Origin: Kutzneria sp. 744
Lineage (GTDB): Bacteria; Actinomycetota; Actinomycetes; Mycobacteriales; Pseudonocardiaceae
Reading direction: 5' to 3'
Assembly (NCBI RefSeq): GCF_000568255.1
Contig: NZ_KK037166.1
Location: 4,007,003 to 4,071,002 of the forward strand
Length of the DNA stretch: 64,000 nucleotides
Shown here: positions 40,431 to 45,798 of the stretch, piece by piece
Numbering within the stretch: the first letter of the stretch is position 1
Layout of the letters: each line of letters starts with the position of its first letter
Program-made: the position numbers and the translations under genes
The notes under the pieces: generated by a model
What the model was told of the DNA's origin: nothing
What the model saw: the letters and a program-made list of their open reading frames with translations, nothing else
Database searches by the model: none

Positions 40431-40446
40431 CGTACAGCCTGCTGTA
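40431..40446. promoter_or_regulatory. Palindrome GTACAGCCTGCTGTAC, copy 1
   Basis: A 16-base inverted repeat (GTACAG-n4-CTGTAC) 59 bases upstream of the CPBP protease start. An identical copy lies between the sensor kinase and the small membrane protein at 43249. It is a likely binding site for the adjacent LuxR-type response regulator. Confidence 0.7.
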
Positions 40447-40504
40447 CCTGATTTCGGGTGCGCACGGGAATGACCTTCGCGGCCCGCGCTGGTGTGCTCA
40501 ACCG

Positions 40505-41368
40505 GTGACAATCACCGAAAACATCCGCCGCCGGCCGCTGGTCTGGTTCTTCGTGCTGGCCAACGCGTTGAGCTGGGCGGCATGGGCGCCGTACATCCTG
40601 TCCGAGAACGGGTTGGGGCTACTGCACTTCCGGTTCCCGGAGCTGCTCGGCACGAGCCAGCTCGCCGGGGTCCTGCCGGGCGCCTACCTGGGGCCGATCT
40701 TCTCGGCGTATGTGGTCACGGCAGTGACCGACGGCCGGGCGGGGCTGCGCCTGTGGGTGGGGCGGCTGGCGAAGTGGCGGGTCAACTGGCGTTGGTACGT
40801 AGGCGTTGTGCTGGCGGTGCCGGCGGTGCTGACGGCGTCCACAGTGGCATTGTCGGAGCAGAACCCGATGCTGCCGGCGGTGGCGACGCTCGTGGCGTAC
40901 GTGCCGGGCCTGGTGCTCCAGATGGTCACCACGGGTCTGGCCGAGGAGCCGGGCTGGCGCGACTTTGCCCTGCCCCGCCTGCAGAACCGGTTCGGGCCGC
41001 TCGGTGGCACGCTGATCCTCGGGCCGCTGTGGGGAGTCTGGCACCTGCCACTGTTCTTCTCGGACTGGGGCAACTGGCCGCACTGGACGCTGCTCACGCC
41101 GGTGGAGTTCGTGGCCACCTGCGTCACCTTCAGCATCATCATGACCTGGGTGTTCAACCGCACCGGGGAGAGCCTGCCGATCGCCATGCTGTTGCACACC
41201 AGCGTGAACAACTTCTTCTCGATCGCCTGGTCGCAGATGTTCCCGTCGATGTCGATCCAGGACACCTCGCACGCGTTCCTGCTCGGCTCCGGCACGATCG
41301 CGATCGTGCTGCTGGCGGCGACCCGCGGCCGCCTGGGTCACCGGGCGCCGGTCCTCGCCTTGAGGTAG
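40505..41368 (+). CDS. CPBP family intramembrane metalloprotease
   Basis: A 287-residue, eight-span membrane protein of the CAAX/bacteriocin-processing (CPBP) family. Catalytic motifs are the Glu-Glu-x-x-x-Arg of LAEEPGWRDFAL, the His of GPLWGVWHLPLFF, and the late His/Asn segment MLLHTSVNNFF. Bacterial members process or confer immunity to peptides, or act in envelope stress. The GTG at 40505 is the start. A 16-base palindrome in its promoter recurs near the two-component genes with which it converges (31-base overlap). Confidence 0.9.
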   Translation: MTITENIRRRPLVWFFVLANALSWAAWAPYILSENGLGLLHFRFPELLGTSQLAGVLPGAYLGPIFSAYVVTAVTDGRAGLRLWVGRLAKWRVNWRWYVGVVLAVPAVLTASTVALSEQNPMLPAVATLVAYVPGLVLQMVTTGLAEEPGWRDFALPRLQNRFGPLGGTLILGPLWGVWHLPLFFSDWGNWPHWTLLTPVEFVATCVTFSIIMTWVFNRTGESLPIAMLLHTSVNNFFSIAWSQMFPSMSIQDTSHAFLLGSGTIAIVLLAATRGRLGHRAPVLALR

Positions 41369-41991
41369 CGCAGCACGGCCGTCACGCGCCGATCGGCACT
41401 GTCGGTCGGCGCGAGATCCAGTTTGGCGAAGATGCTGCGAATGTGCTTGTGCACGGCCCCGTCCGTGACGACCAGCCGCGCGGCGATGGCGCTGTTGCCC
41501 AGTCCCTCGGCCATGAGCGCCAGCACGTCCCGCTCCCGGGCGCTGAGCCGTTCCAACCGGTTGTCGGGGCGAACCATCAGCTGGGCAACGACTTCCGGGT
41601 CGATGGCGGTGCCGCCGCCGGCCACCCGGCGCAGCACGTCCAGGAACTCCTCGACCCGCCCGACCCGCTCCTTGAGCAGGTAGCCCAGCCCTGAGCCGCC
41701 CGTGGTGAACAGCTCGGTGGCGAAGGCCTGCTCCACGTACGCGGAGAGCACGAGCACCGCCAGGCCGGATTGCCGCCGCCGGGCCTCGACCGCCGCCACA
41801 ATGCCTTCGTCGGTGTTGGTCGGCGGCATGCGAACGTCCACAATGGCCAGATCGGGCCCGTGTTCATCCACGGCGGCCAGGAAGTCCGGCGCGTTGGCCA
41901 CGGTCGCCACGACATCGAGGCCCTCGGCCTTCAACAGCAGGGCCAGGCCCTCGCGCAGCAGCGAGTCGTCTTCGGCGATCACAATCCGCAT
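41338..41991 (-). CDS. LuxR/NarL-family response regulator
   Basis: A 217-residue regulator. The receiver domain has acidic EDD near residue 7, phosphoacceptor Asp in LAIVDVRMPP, and Lys in YLLKERVG. The C-terminal NarL domain has LSARERDVLALMAEGLGNSA and VTDGAVHKHIRSIFAKL. The ATG at 41991 overlaps the sensor-kinase stop by 13 bases. Palindromes upstream of the CPBP gene and next to the kinase gene are candidate targets. Confidence 0.93.
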   Translation of the reverse strand: MRIVIAEDDSLLREGLALLLKAEGLDVVATVANAPDFLAAVDEHGPDLAIVDVRMPPTNTDEGIVAAVEARRRQSGLAVLVLSAYVEQAFATELFTTGGSGLGYLLKERVGRVEEFLDVLRRVAGGGTAIDPEVVAQLMVRPDNRLERLSARERDVLALMAEGLGNSAIAARLVVTDGAVHKHIRSIFAKLDLAPTDSADRRVTAVLRYLKARTGAR

Positions 41992-43196
41992 GGCAGGCTC
42001 ACAGTCAGAACGGTCGGTCCCCCAACGGGACTGGTCAACGCGAAGGCCCCGTCGTGCGCCTCGACCCGGCGGCGGATGCCCGACAGCCCCGAGCCGTCCT
42101 GCTCGCTGGCCCCGCCGGCGCCGTCGTCGGTCACCTCCACGCACAGCCGATTCTCCTGTCGGCGCAGGGAAATCGTCGCAGCGGTGGCCCGGCTGTGCCG
42201 GGCGACGTTGGTCAAGGCCTCGGCCACCACGAAGTACGCGGTCGCCTCCACGGAAACGGCGCAGCGGTCGGCCACATCGGCGTCGAGGCGACAGGTCACC
42301 GGGCAGGCGGCGGCCAACGACGTGAGGGCGTCGGGCAGGCTCCGGTCGGCCAGCACCGGCGGCAGGATGCTGCGCACGACCCCGCGCAACTCGGCCAGCG
42401 CCTGCTCGGCGGCGTCCTGCGCGCGGTCGAGAATCTCCTTGCTGACCAGCGGATCCCGATCCAACGCGCGCTGCGCGGCACCGATCAGCACGGTCACGGC
42501 GACCAGCCGGTTCTGGGTGCCGTCGTGCAGCGACCGCTCGATCCGCCTCAGCTCGGCGGCATGGGCGTCCAACGCCGCCGCGCGGGTGGCCGTCAGCTGG
42601 GCCACGCGTAGGGCCAGGTCGGCGCCACGATCCGGCGAGAGCAGGCGGATCCCCGGCCATGCCTGCAACCACGCCATCGGCGGCAGCACCACGATCGTGA
42701 TCACCAGCGCCGCGAGCCCGATCAGGCACACCAGGAACGCGCCGGACCAGTCGGTGGCGGGAAAGAATCCCTGCGCCGGCATGGCCGCGGACGGCGGGAC
42801 CAGCTGCCACCACAGCGGGAAAGAGGCGTCATGGAGGACGTCGATCGGCAGCGTCAACGCGGTGGCCCCGAGCAGAAAGCCGAGGGAGGCGTGGCAGAGC
42901 AGCCAGCCTAGCTCCCGGCGCAGGGCCGGATCCCGCAGTCCCCGCACCGGCCCCGGGCCGATGATCTCCGGCCCCCAGCGGGACAGCCGGGCGCGCTCCC
43001 GGTCGGCCACCGCCCGCACCATGCGCAGCGCGGTCGGCAGCAGCAGGAACCCGACCCCGACCAGGCACAATGCGACGGTCACGAGCAGCCACGCCAGCAC
43101 CGCCACCGCGAACAGGGCCGTGCCGAGGCCGCCGGCGAGGTGTTCGAGCGCGTCCAGCACGGCACGGGCCCGGCCGACCACGTATCGGGTGGACAT
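41979..43196 (-). CDS. NarL-type sensor histidine kinase
   Basis: A 405-residue membrane kinase: four predicted spans (for example LFAVAVLAWLLVTVALCLVG and FLVCLIGLAALVITIVVLPP), a HisKA_3 domain with the phosphoacceptor in RRIERSLHDGTQNRL, and an ATPase domain with the N-box EALTNVARHSRA and the G-box DDGAGGASEQDGSGLSGI. The short extracellular loops suggest it senses the membrane or envelope. The ATG at 43196 is the start and the gene is coupled to the response regulator. Confidence 0.92.
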   Translation of the reverse strand: MSTRYVVGRARAVLDALEHLAGGLGTALFAVAVLAWLLVTVALCLVGVGFLLLPTALRMVRAVADRERARLSRWGPEIIGPGPVRGLRDPALRRELGWLLCHASLGFLLGATALTLPIDVLHDASFPLWWQLVPPSAAMPAQGFFPATDWSGAFLVCLIGLAALVITIVVLPPMAWLQAWPGIRLLSPDRGADLALRVAQLTATRAAALDAHAAELRRIERSLHDGTQNRLVAVTVLIGAAQRALDRDPLVSKEILDRAQDAAEQALAELRGVVRSILPPVLADRSLPDALTSLAAACPVTCRLDADVADRCAVSVEATAYFVVAEALTNVARHSRATAATISLRRQENRLCVEVTDDGAGGASEQDGSGLSGIRRRVEAHDGAFALTSPVGGPTVLTVSLPCGL

Positions 43197-43248
43197 GCCC
43201 CGGACCCTAGCCACCCGCGCGGGCCGCAGCCACGCCGAGCACCCATAA

Positions 43249-43264
43249 GTACAGCCTGCTGTAC
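43249..43264. promoter_or_regulatory. Palindrome GTACAGCCTGCTGTAC, copy 2
   Basis: Identical to the 16-base palindrome at 40431. It lies 53 bases upstream of the kinase start and 59 bases upstream of the small membrane protein on the other strand, so it could control both. The distance to the rightward gene (59 bases to the ATG) equals the distance at the CPBP gene to within a base. Confidence 0.7.
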
Positions 43265-43322
43265 CGCCGATTCTCCCGCCCGCTGGATCGTGCGTGGGGA
43301 CGCCGATTCCTAGAGTCTTGGC

Positions 43323-43496
43323 ATGACCAAAACCCGCCCCGTCCTCTGGGTCCTGCTGGCCGTCAGCGCCGTCGCCAACGTCGTGACGTCCGCTTCCGGC
43401 CAGAATGTCCTGCTCGGTATCGGTTTCGGGCTGGTGACGCTGGCCTTCGCCGCCGCCCTGGTGGCCGACCACTACCGACGTCGCCGCCAGGGCTGA
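43323..43496 (+). CDS. Small two-span membrane protein
   Basis: A 57-residue protein: a short basic N-terminus (MTKTRP), two hydrophobic segments (VLWVLLAVSAVANVVTS and VLLGIGFGLVTLAFAAALVA) and a basic tail (DHYRRRRQG). Codon usage is normal, with G or C in most third positions. It starts the same distance from its palindrome as the CPBP gene does from its copy, so it is a probable member of the same two-component regulon. Function is unknown. It may be a regulator or target of the protease or kinase. Confidence 0.72.
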   Translation: MTKTRPVLWVLLAVSAVANVVTSASGQNVLLGIGFGLVTLAFAAALVADHYRRRRQG

Positions 43497-43632: not shown

Positions 43633-43646
43633 TGTAAACGTTTTCA
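43633..43646. promoter_or_regulatory. LacI/cre-type operator in front of the sugar-dehydrogenase gene
   Basis: TGTAAACGTTTTCA matches the LacI-family/cre consensus TGWAARCGYTWWCA at every position. It lies about 40 bases before the GTG at 43684. No lacI gene is adjacent, so the regulator must be encoded elsewhere. Confidence 0.6.
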
Positions 43647-43683
43647 CACCGCCGCCGCGCCAGACATCCGATGCGAGTGGAAG

Positions 43684-45798
43684 GTGCGGGCTGTGGCCAG
43701 AACGAGCCTAGCCAGACTTGTCGCCGGCGCGTGGCGGTCTTCGCCGTCATCGCCGGGACCGCGGGTCCGGCCTCGGCGGCGGACACGTTGCTGTCGCAGG
43801 GTAAAACCCGTCGTCGCCAGTTCCTCCGGGGGCTGCTGCCAGCCCGCGAACGCGGTCGACGGCAACACCACCACCCGGTGGGCCAGCGCGGCGAACGTCG
43901 ACCCGTCGTGGATCTACGTCGACCTCGGCGCGACCTACGCCGTCAACCGGGTCCAGCTGACCTGGGACGCCTCGTGCGCCAAGGCGTACCGGATCGAGGT
44001 CTCCCCCGACACGACCAACTGGACGGCGATCTACACCACCACGTCCGGCAAGGGCGGCGTCGAGAACCTCACCGGCCTGTCCGGGACCGGCCGCTACGTC
44101 CGGGTCTACGGCACAGCGCGCTGTAGAACCGATGCCAGCAAGGGCTATTCGCTCGACGAGTTCCAGGTCTACGGCGCGGGCGGCGACACCGTTCCCCCAA
44201 CCCCGCCCGGCGCACCGACCCTGGTGAGCAGCACCCCGACCAGCGCCGCCATCCAGTGGCCGGCCTCGACCGACAACGTGGCCGTCGCCGGCTACGACAT
44301 CTACCACGACGGCCAGCTGTGCGCGCAGGTCACCGGTACGACCGGGACCTGCGACGGCCTGAGCCCCAGCACCACCTACGGCTTCTACGTCAACGCCCGC
44401 GACAGCGCCGGCAACGTCTCGCAGCCCAGCCCCACGCTGTCGGTCACCACGCAGCCGTCGGACGACCACATGCCGCCGACCGCGCCGACCAACGTGCACA
44501 CCACGAGCGTCACCAGCACGAGCATCGGCCTGGCCTGGACCGCTTCCACGGACAACGTCGGCGTCACCGGCTACACGGTCTACAACGTCGTCAACGGTTC
44601 GCCGGTGGCGATCGGATCCTCCAGCGGCGCAACGCCCAGCGCGCAGCTGAGCGCCCTGACGCCGAACACGGCCTACCACCTCCAGGTCACCGCGTCCGAC
44701 GGCAACAAGAACGCCAGCCCGCCCTCGGCCACCCTGGACGTGACGACGACGAGCGGCTCCTGCACCCAACCGATCTGCACCGTCACCCAGGTCGGGGCCA
44801 GCGACGACGTGGTGTGGGGCTTCGTCACGCTGCCGGACGGCACGATCCTGTTCAACGAGCGGGACGTGCACGACATCGTGCACCTGAACCCCAAGACCGG
44901 GGCCAAGAAGGTCATCGGCACCGTGCCCAACGTGCAGAGCACCGACGGCGAGGGCGGCCTGACCGGCCTGGAGATCAACCCGGCCAGCTTCGGCAGCGAC
45001 CACTGGCTCTACATCATGCACACTTCCCCGTCCGACAACCGGATCGTGCGCATCAAGTACGACCCGAGCGCCGACGCGCTGCAGACCTCGACCGAGCAGA
45101 TCCTGGTCTCCGGCATCGCGCGCAACAAGTTCCACAACGGCGGCCGGTTGCGCTTCAGCCCCGACGGCAAGTACCTCTACGCTGGCACCGGCGACGCCCA
45201 GAACGGCGACAACGCGCAGAACACCAGCAGCCTCAACGGAAAGGTGCTGCGGATCAGCCCGGACGGCAGCATCCCGGCCGACAATCCCTTCCACAACGCC
45301 GTGTGGAGCTACGGGCACCGCAACGTGCAGGGGCTGGCCTTCGACTCCCAGGGACGCCTGTGGGAGCAGGAGTTCGGCAACAGCATCATGGACGAGACCA
45401 ACCTGATCGTGAAGGGCGGCAACTACGGCTGGCCCTCGTGCGAGGGAACGTCCGGCAGCTGCGGCAATGCCGGCTACCTCAAGCCCAAGCACACCTATCC
45501 CGTGGCTCAGGGCTCGTGCAGCGGCATCACCATCGTCCGTGACGTGCTCTACGTCGCCTGCGAGCGCGGCACCCGCCTCTACCGCGAGGTGATCAGCGGC
45601 GACAGCCTGACCAACGTGCAGGTGTTCTTCGACGGCACCTACGGCCGGCTGCGCACCGTCGAGCCCGCGCCCGACGGCGGCATCTGGCTGACCACGTCCA
45701 ACAACGGGGACAAGGACAGCACCCCGCACAACAGCAACGACCAGATCTTCCACGTGTCACTGGCGCCGCCTTCGGCGTCGCGGCTCGGCCCCTTCTAA
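43684..45798 (+). CDS. Discoidin-FN3-FN3-PQQ-type sugar dehydrogenase, secreted (signal region scrambled)
   Basis: A 704-codon frame. Domain order is an F5/8-type discoidin carbohydrate-binding module (~45-170), two fibronectin type III repeats (~175-265 and ~268-360), then a glucose/sorbosone dehydrogenase beta-propeller (~370-700) with DGEGGLTGLEINP, HNGGRLRFSPDGKYLYAGTG and YGHRNVQGLAFD. Codons ~17-40 read as an Arg/Pro-rich string. The frame next to them encodes a good signal peptide (VAVFAVIAGTAGPASAA). One missing base near 43731 and one extra A in 43803-43806 explain this. Without correction the protein would lack its export signal. It probably oxidises extracellular sugars. Confidence 0.85.
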   Translation: MRAVARTSLARLVAGAWRSSPSSPGPRVRPRRRTRCCRRVKPVVASSSGGCCQPANAVDGNTTTRWASAANVDPSWIYVDLGATYAVNRVQLTWDASCAKAYRIEVSPDTTNWTAIYTTTSGKGGVENLTGLSGTGRYVRVYGTARCRTDASKGYSLDEFQVYGAGGDTVPPTPPGAPTLVSSTPTSAAIQWPASTDNVAVAGYDIYHDGQLCAQVTGTTGTCDGLSPSTTYGFYVNARDSAGNVSQPSPTLSVTTQPSDDHMPPTAPTNVHTTSVTSTSIGLAWTASTDNVGVTGYTVYNVVNGSPVAIGSSSGATPSAQLSALTPNTAYHLQVTASDGNKNASPPSATLDVTTTSGSCTQPICTVTQVGASDDVVWGFVTLPDGTILFNERDVHDIVHLNPKTGAKKVIGTVPNVQSTDGEGGLTGLEINPASFGSDHWLYIMHTSPSDNRIVRIKYDPSADALQTSTEQILVSGIARNKFHNGGRLRFSPDGKYLYAGTGDAQNGDNAQNTSSLNGKVLRISPDGSIPADNPFHNAVWSYGHRNVQGLAFDSQGRLWEQEFGNSIMDETNLIVKGGNYGWPSCEGTSGSCGNAGYLKPKHTYPVAQGSCSGITIVRDVLYVACERGTRLYREVISGDSLTNVQVFFDGTYGRLRTVEPAPDGGIWLTTSNNGDKDSTPHNSNDQIFHVSLAPPSASRLGPF

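Follow-up and report, generated by a model that had tools for sequence, protein, structure and literature searches.

A conserved actinobacterial palindrome as the probable operator of a NarL-type response regulator linked to a small membrane protein and a CPBP protein

Introduction

A 16-base palindrome, GTACAGCCTGCTGTAC, occurs in two exact copies, at 40432–40447 and 43249–43264, in a stretch of 64,000 nucleotides from the genome of Kutzneria sp. 744 (contig NZ_KK037166.1, positions 4,007,003 to 4,071,002). This whole stretch is referred to as the window, and coordinates given without a contig name are counted within it. The two copies flank the genes for a CPBP-type membrane protein, a NarL-type response regulator (RR) and a sensor histidine kinase, and the second copy also precedes an open reading frame (ORF) of 57 amino acids. 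Which protein acts at this palindrome, and which genes does it control? The first-pass annotation of the window had answered with a compact envelope-stress regulon made up of these four genes; it located the second copy correctly and placed the first one base too far to the left.

The comparison of genomes described below strengthened the regulon idea, since the palindrome tracks the RR across Actinomycetes and marks promoters that include those of the CPBP and small-protein genes. The proposed set of targets was borne out but was too narrow, as relatives add a MacB/FtsX-type ATP-binding cassette (ABC) transporter and a PF00144 serine hydrolase, and some CPBP genes and small-protein/ABC operons have the palindrome in front of them at unlinked sites. 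With a probability of about 0.85, we propose that the adjacent NarL-type RR has its operator in GTACAGCCTGCTGTAC and would activate the small-protein and CPBP promoters here and ABC or PF00144 genes elsewhere.

Occurrence of the palindrome and its association with the regulator

The earlier statement that the palindrome has only two copies is true of the window. The genome search that the first-pass annotation had suggested found three occurrences of the arms with any centre, GTACAGCNNGCTGTAC, in 11.6 Mb. Two of them lie at predicted promoters; the third (C1:4456764) does not, as it lies inside long open frames with promoter elements absent downstream and looks like a chance occurrence. When up to three mismatches were allowed, the window yielded six matches (both perfect sites being counted on each strand) against 0.29 expected, and none of 100 shuffles reached six. 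The genome-wide list with two mismatches, which comprised 175 matches per strand, was examined by sampling.

The search for the RR in 60 relatives revealed a tight orthologue group at 77–95% identity, followed by a drop to 66%, and the loci of the first orthologues contained the same palindrome between the kinase and small-protein genes. The association was then quantified in 397 genomes of the order, the window's own included, which were searched for the arms and for the RR at E ≤ 1e-82. The palindrome with a CT/AG centre was present in 38 genomes, all 38 of them among the 65 with the RR, and in none of the other 332 (Fisher 8e-36). Palindromes with other centres were found in 18 genomes, two of which had the RR (p 0.75). 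The CT/AG sites were mostly close to the RR gene (42 of 48 within 6 kb), and a perfect copy was found in 37 genomes for the 53 closest RRs (at least 75% identity) and in one among the other 12. One genome of the same order (G191) contained 19 perfect copies of the arms, the five listed being centred CC/GG or CG, and no RR orthologue at E ≤ 1e-82; these copies look like a different repeat or operator.

A class-wide sample of 394 genomes, partly shared with the order sample and again including the window's own, gave the same picture. The CT/AG palindrome was found in 18 genomes and the RR in 27, with both present in 13 (13/18 vs 14/376, Fisher 2e-13). In a third sample, 80 loci from 28 genera were picked by RR similarity alone. 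Perfect CT/AG palindromes were present in 47 of them (18 of the 28 genera) and copies with at most two mismatches in 61, whereas the reversed sequences of the same loci gave 0 and 2, respectively. Further loci were fetched for the palindrome (L163–L167 and L270–L278) or for the palindrome and the RR (L279–L282); locus L218 contains masked bases. In Actinophytocola gossypii (L124 and L199), an RR orthologue with 82% identity occurs without the palindrome, and no recognisable kinase of this type lies within 12 kb.

The RR orthologues share the recognition helix AVHKHIR[SN]IF, and paralogues have G, N or A at the arginine position. The relation of this residue to the palindrome was evaluated with 148 distinct RRs, after the exclusion of 13 identical RRs, of matches that stopped short of residue 200 and of loci with less than 2,500 bases around the RR. 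For the 139 RRs with the arginine, the best nearby site had no arm mismatch in 86 cases, one in 16, two in 16 and more in 21; sites with at most one mismatch were thus found near 102 of them. The reversed control for the same 139 RRs gave no site with 0–1 mismatches and three with two. Near the nine RRs lacking the arginine, there was no site with 0–1 mismatches (0/9) and in one case a site with two. Since this correlation tracks descent as well as function, it is supportive and falls short of proof. The Streptomyces loci L221, L222, L227, L236, L238, L249 and L250 have the helix arginine together with a best nearby site of 3–5 arm mismatches.

Promoter structure and target genes

The palindrome is not fully symmetric, as its centre reads CT toward the target gene, and this defines an orientation. 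Sites with a CT centre and at most two mismatches were used for counting targets; the 142 oriented sites were reduced by similarity to 117 non-redundant ones. In the alignment of the 117 sites, the element GGATCG starts at +20 in 29 and at +21 in 25, and a −10 box follows GGATCG after 20 bases in 33 and after 21 bases in 12. In front of small-protein genes, a −10 box was found at 47 of 56 sites, always after a gap of 45, 46 or 47 bases from the operator. Both elements were found at the set distances in 42 of 47 non-redundant small-protein sites vs 4 of 117 sites when read in the other direction. The distance between operator and kinase start can be as short as 16 and as long as 389 bases (83 sites). 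Control of the kinase gene from the same site, which had also been suggested, is therefore unsupported, because the kinase distance varies while the geometry on the small-protein side is fixed.

The CPBP promoters are of a related type with [AG]TGA[CT] in the place of GGATCG (9 of 12 direct CPBP sites; the CPBP site in L281, which is outside these 12, has AATGAT) and with TGTGCT or TGGACT in the place of the −10 box in most of the CPBP sites displayed. Mismatches in the 25 imperfect sites whose target is known number 27 in the half distal to the promoter and 7 in the proximal half. If transcription starts about seven bases after the −10 box, the operator would be centred near −65. Such a position is typical of an activator which contacts RNA polymerase from upstream. 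Since the promoter elements on the target side come after the palindrome, a reading of it as an RNA hairpin was dropped.

In the window, operator copy 1 (40432–40447, forward strand) has the arms GTACAGC and GCTGTAC, and its CT centre reads toward the CPBP gene; it is kept in front of CPBP genes elsewhere. It is followed by AATGAC at the −35 position of the CPBP promoter type (40469–40474, forward) and by the proposed −10 element TGTGCT (40493–40498, forward), which is suggested by its sequence and its recurrence at the same place in other genomes. The copy ends 57 bases before the GTG start codon at 40505, and the transcript would begin at or near this GTG, i.e. would be leaderless. Operator copy 2 (43249–43264, forward) lies between the kinase gene on the left and the small-protein gene on the right, with CT toward the latter and at the same position as in relatives. 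The conserved element GGATCG (43285–43290, forward) follows 20 bases past this operator and the conserved −10 box TAGAGT (consensus TAGCGT; 43311–43316, forward) 46 bases past it. The copy ends 58 bases before the ATG of the small ORF (43323); since this ATG lies six bases past TAGAGT, the transcript is probably leaderless. The first-pass annotation had given about 59 bases for both distances to the start codons, slightly too many, and correctly 53 bases from copy 2 to the kinase start (43196). On the kinase side, the −10-like box TAGGGT (43204–43209, reverse strand) was found by sequence, at a spacing from the operator which is not conserved. Throughout the genome, GCTGTAC and GGATCG at the correct distance occur at five places, of which only the copy at 43249 adds the full palindrome and the −10 box, and GCTGTAC followed by AATGAC occurs at a single place, the copy at 40432.

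The first recognised gene downstream of the 142 oriented sites encodes the small protein in 56 cases, an ABC ATPase in 23, a CPBP protein in 15 (the reading frame of the small protein intervenes in three of these), the kinase in six and a PF00144 serine hydrolase in five. The Pfam families concerned are ABC_tran, FtsX permease, Beta-lactamase PF00144 and Rce1-like. In 147 RR loci of about 12 kb, a redundant set in which some genomes are present in both collections, the small protein was found in 90, ABC genes in 73, the serine hydrolase in 36 and CPBP in 24.

The best indication that this is a true regulon comes from sites unlinked to the kinase and RR genes. Such sites precede CPBP genes in L163, L164 (in reversed orientation) and L165, a small-protein gene and a kinase fragment in L167 and an alpha/beta hydrolase gene in L166. 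L275 contains a full small protein–ABC–FtsX operon with a perfect operator, GGATCG and TAGCGT on a contig different from that of the RR; the RR of the same genome (L281) has a CPBP site nearby. L276 and L277, from genomes of the same kind, hold more copies with no clear target. Two nearby operators occur in the Streptomyces loci L253, each in front of its own small-protein gene, and L258, where one precedes a small-protein gene and the other an ABC operon. The kinase gene of both loci lies downstream of the RR gene. An ABC partner was also sought in the Kutzneria genome. The best FtsX-like relative (31% identical, C1:8652098) has no operator half-site in promoter position in the 5.6 kb examined, and no ABC partner under the operator was therefore found in this genome.

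The 57-residue protein and the neighbouring genes

The small ORF (43323–43496, forward) is a real gene as judged from the ratio of nonsynonymous to synonymous substitutions (dN/dS), which was 0.20–0.47 in six pairs from four congeneric species. An initial pattern search (16 matches) was too strict, and an iterated hidden Markov model (HMM) was used for family counts; it detected the family in 91 of 157 loci. Alignment of 48 members showed invariant W9, N19 and L46. The predicted structure has helices at residues 4–24 and 30–56 (mean pLDDT 75, pTM 0.43), and the model and the hydrophobicity together point to a two-helix membrane hairpin. The protein of the window has no Pfam or NCBIfam match at 1e-3, and the 48 members at E ≤ 0.1 gave scattered weak matches with at most five members per Pfam model and three per NCBIfam model. 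By these sequence searches, the family is undescribed and covered by none of the Pfam and NCBIfam models searched. No second member was found in the genome of Kutzneria. Among 90 small-protein loci, counted by the genes inside the fetched 12-kb loci, ABC genes are present in 53 and CPBP genes in 16, and an ABC gene directly follows the small protein in 31 of 92 small-protein matches.

The gene types assigned at first pass to the CPBP, RR and kinase genes agree with the Pfam matches. The CPBP (Rce1-like) protein of 287 amino acids (40505–41368, forward) matches PF02517 (E 8.9e-15, 55.2 bits vs a cut-off of 22.4). Catalytic-type motifs of such proteins are EExxxR, F/WxxxH and HxxxN; the translation reads EEPGWR, WGVWH (with W for F) and HTSVN, and the protein is a probable intramembrane protease. 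The RR of 217 amino acids (41338–41991, reverse), the proposed binder of the palindrome with the helix AVHKHIRSIF, has Response_reg (PF00072, E 5.6e-15) and GerE (PF00196, E 7.8e-11) domains above the cut-off. The kinase of 405 amino acids (41979–43196, reverse) has Sensor (PF13796, E 1.4e-23), HisKA_3 (PF07730, E 2.1e-12) and HATPase_c (PF02518, E 5.1e-09) domains. The 3′ ends of the RR and CPBP genes overlap by 31 bases (41338–41368). There is also a 13-base overlap of the kinase gene with the start of the RR gene (41979–41991), which suggests translational coupling. Another palindrome, TGTAAACGTTTTCACA (43633–43648), lies upstream of a gene for a GSDH/F5-F8/fn3 protein at 43684 and resembles a LacI/GalR-type operator.

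Discussion

The association of the operator with the RR, the fixed promoter geometry and the set of targets are shown by sequence comparison. From these we infer binding, activation rather than repression, phosphorylation, the signal and the physiological role. The membrane kinase would sense a membrane signal through its Sensor domain and phosphorylate the RR, a dimer of which would bind the palindrome about 65 bases upstream of the transcription start; its orientation would follow from the CT centre and from the half-site nearest the promoter, which is invariant. The bound RR would then activate a promoter in which the −35 element and the −10 box are fixed. In this genome, the RR would act directly on the genes for the CPBP protein and the two-helix membrane protein. 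Its counterparts in other Actinomycetes would turn on either a PF00144 serine hydrolase gene or the small-protein gene along with that for a MacB/FtsX-type ABC transporter. The kinds of genes suggest envelope stress as the signal and protection or repair of the membrane or envelope as the likely purpose, and the CPBP protein may feed back on the kinase by analogy with SpdC–WalK and Abx1–CovS.

Several observations do not fit this model well. In the class sample, five of the 18 palindrome-bearing genomes miss the RR cut. One of these exceptions (L274) has a diverged RR (64.6%) adjoining the site, with both the helix arginine and the palindrome present. In L270–L272, no RR lies in the fetched 10–12 kb and the site reads like coding sequence, so that these palindromes appear to be chance copies, and L273 is without explanation. 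Among the 80 loci picked by RR similarity, 33 have no perfect copy, and 19 have none even when two mismatches are allowed; these 19 include four Microbispora and several Streptomyces loci. A Streptomyces group and Microbispora keep the helix arginine yet have no site. The gene families used assign no target to 37 of the 142 oriented sites, 20 of the 117 non-redundant sites are without a target and without promoter elements, and the CPBP site in L164 and several others point the opposite way.

The absence of the site near some arginine-bearing RR orthologues could mean that the palindrome belongs to another DNA-binding protein linked to the kinase–RR pair. We consider this very improbable, though no search aimed at another co-occurring regulator was made, as an RR orthologue was present in 38/38 palindrome genomes of the order sample and the presence of the site goes with the residue in the recognition helix of the RR. 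A chance repeat or a recent duplication in one genome, for which the third genome copy and three copies of the class sample might be quoted, is ruled out for practical purposes by the same 38/38 association and by conservation over 18 genera with a control of 0. The sign of regulation is not readable from geometry alone, and the kinase gene lies near the operator in 83 of the 142 sites; the RR might thus repress through the palindrome until relieved by phosphorylation, or repress the kinase side and activate the other. Such repression is unlikely, since the operator lies at a fixed distance upstream of the −35 element and overlaps neither this element nor the −10 box on the target side, the kinase side has no fixed spacing, and the −35 elements are far from the σ70 consensus, as in activator-dependent promoters.

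The alternatives to activation by the RR having been weighed, the roles of its two targets in this genome can be considered. The pairing of the small protein with the protease as substrate or inhibitor draws on their common operator in this genome and three congeners (L047, L048 and L049). We judge it improbable: within the fetched 12 kb, an ABC partner is commoner than CPBP in the small-protein loci (53/90 vs 16/90), and ABC is directly next in 31/92. The substrate role put forward at first pass is left unsupported by these counts. A better candidate, with the odds still somewhat against it, is a role of the CPBP protein in feedback on the kinase, in place of proteolysis of a substrate of its own. 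Its EExxxR and HxxxN motifs are intact, so protease activity is possible, and a CPBP gene occurs in only 24 of 147 system loci within about 12 kb, so that a general need for it in signalling is not evident. In favour of feedback, the operator is also found before the CPBP gene here and sometimes before such genes far from the system. Precedents are SpdC, which is activated by WalKR and interacts with and dampens WalK (PMC5854430), and Abx1, which binds and regulates CovS with no need for protease activity (PMC3578759). A wider proposal, which we put forward quite tentatively, is an undescribed membrane-defence regulon throughout Actinomycetes. One NarL-type system with a nearly invariant, directional operator of 16 bases would control a new family of two-helix membrane peptides, and these would be interchangeable accessory or sensing subunits that in most lineages act together with an FtsX-type ABC transporter and elsewhere with a CPBP protease feeding back on the kinase.

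The palindrome is highly conserved in many actinobacteria and is probably the control site through which the adjacent sensor system turns on the genes for an undescribed small membrane protein and a membrane protease and, in relatives, also for a transporter. Two anonymous palindromes have become a prediction for a two-component system of Streptomyces, Micromonospora, Amycolatopsis, Nonomuraea and many other antibiotic producers. The operator, promoter elements and target genes of this system can be specified beforehand, and a single regulator protein with a few promoters would suffice to test them. Moreover, a small membrane protein family outside all searched models has been brought to light, and CPBP proteases gain a defined regulatory context beyond Firmicutes.

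Two-component systems that control envelope-type regulons are already known. Among the matches listed from open-licence literature, no paper describes this regulon, its operator, its promoter grammar or the small protein family, and the matches listed for the half-sites were primers and unrelated sequence. As for named families, the best-scoring named NCBIfam model for the RR is MadR and that for the kinase is MctS. The scores are far below the cut-offs for MadR/MadS (NF047785/NF047786; RR 96.2 vs 300 bits, kinase 43.3 vs 500) and for MctS of the MctR/MctS pair (89.5 vs 700 bits), so that the RR and the kinase are members of neither pair. MadRS of Enterococcus faecalis (PMC10614854) is tied to the NCBIfam models by name only.

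The LiaFSR/VraSR systems resemble the present one in having a NarL-type regulator, a HisKA_3 kinase and a membrane-protein regulon (for part of the VraSR regulon, see PMC10581084). The kinase of the window differs in its PF13796 sensor domain and scores 39.8 bits on NCBIfam LiaS against a cut-off of 450. The operator of LiaFSR/VraSR is not known to resemble the palindrome. WalR of the WalKR system is an OmpR-type regulator, unlike the NarL-type RR here. WalKR–SpdC of Staphylococcus aureus is similar in having a CPBP/Abi-family membrane protein that is under the control of the two-component system and is able to act on its kinase; the kinase architecture differs, and the small hairpin protein and a shared palindrome do not figure in the available part of its description (PMC5854430). 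AbrA1/A2 of Streptomyces coelicolor is likewise actinobacterial and ABC-linked and is reported to activate its own operon, in which the ABC genes, the kinase and the regulator form one four-gene unit (PMC4193843). Compared by description, the small-protein and ABC genes of the system proposed here would in contrast be driven separately, and often divergently from the kinase gene.

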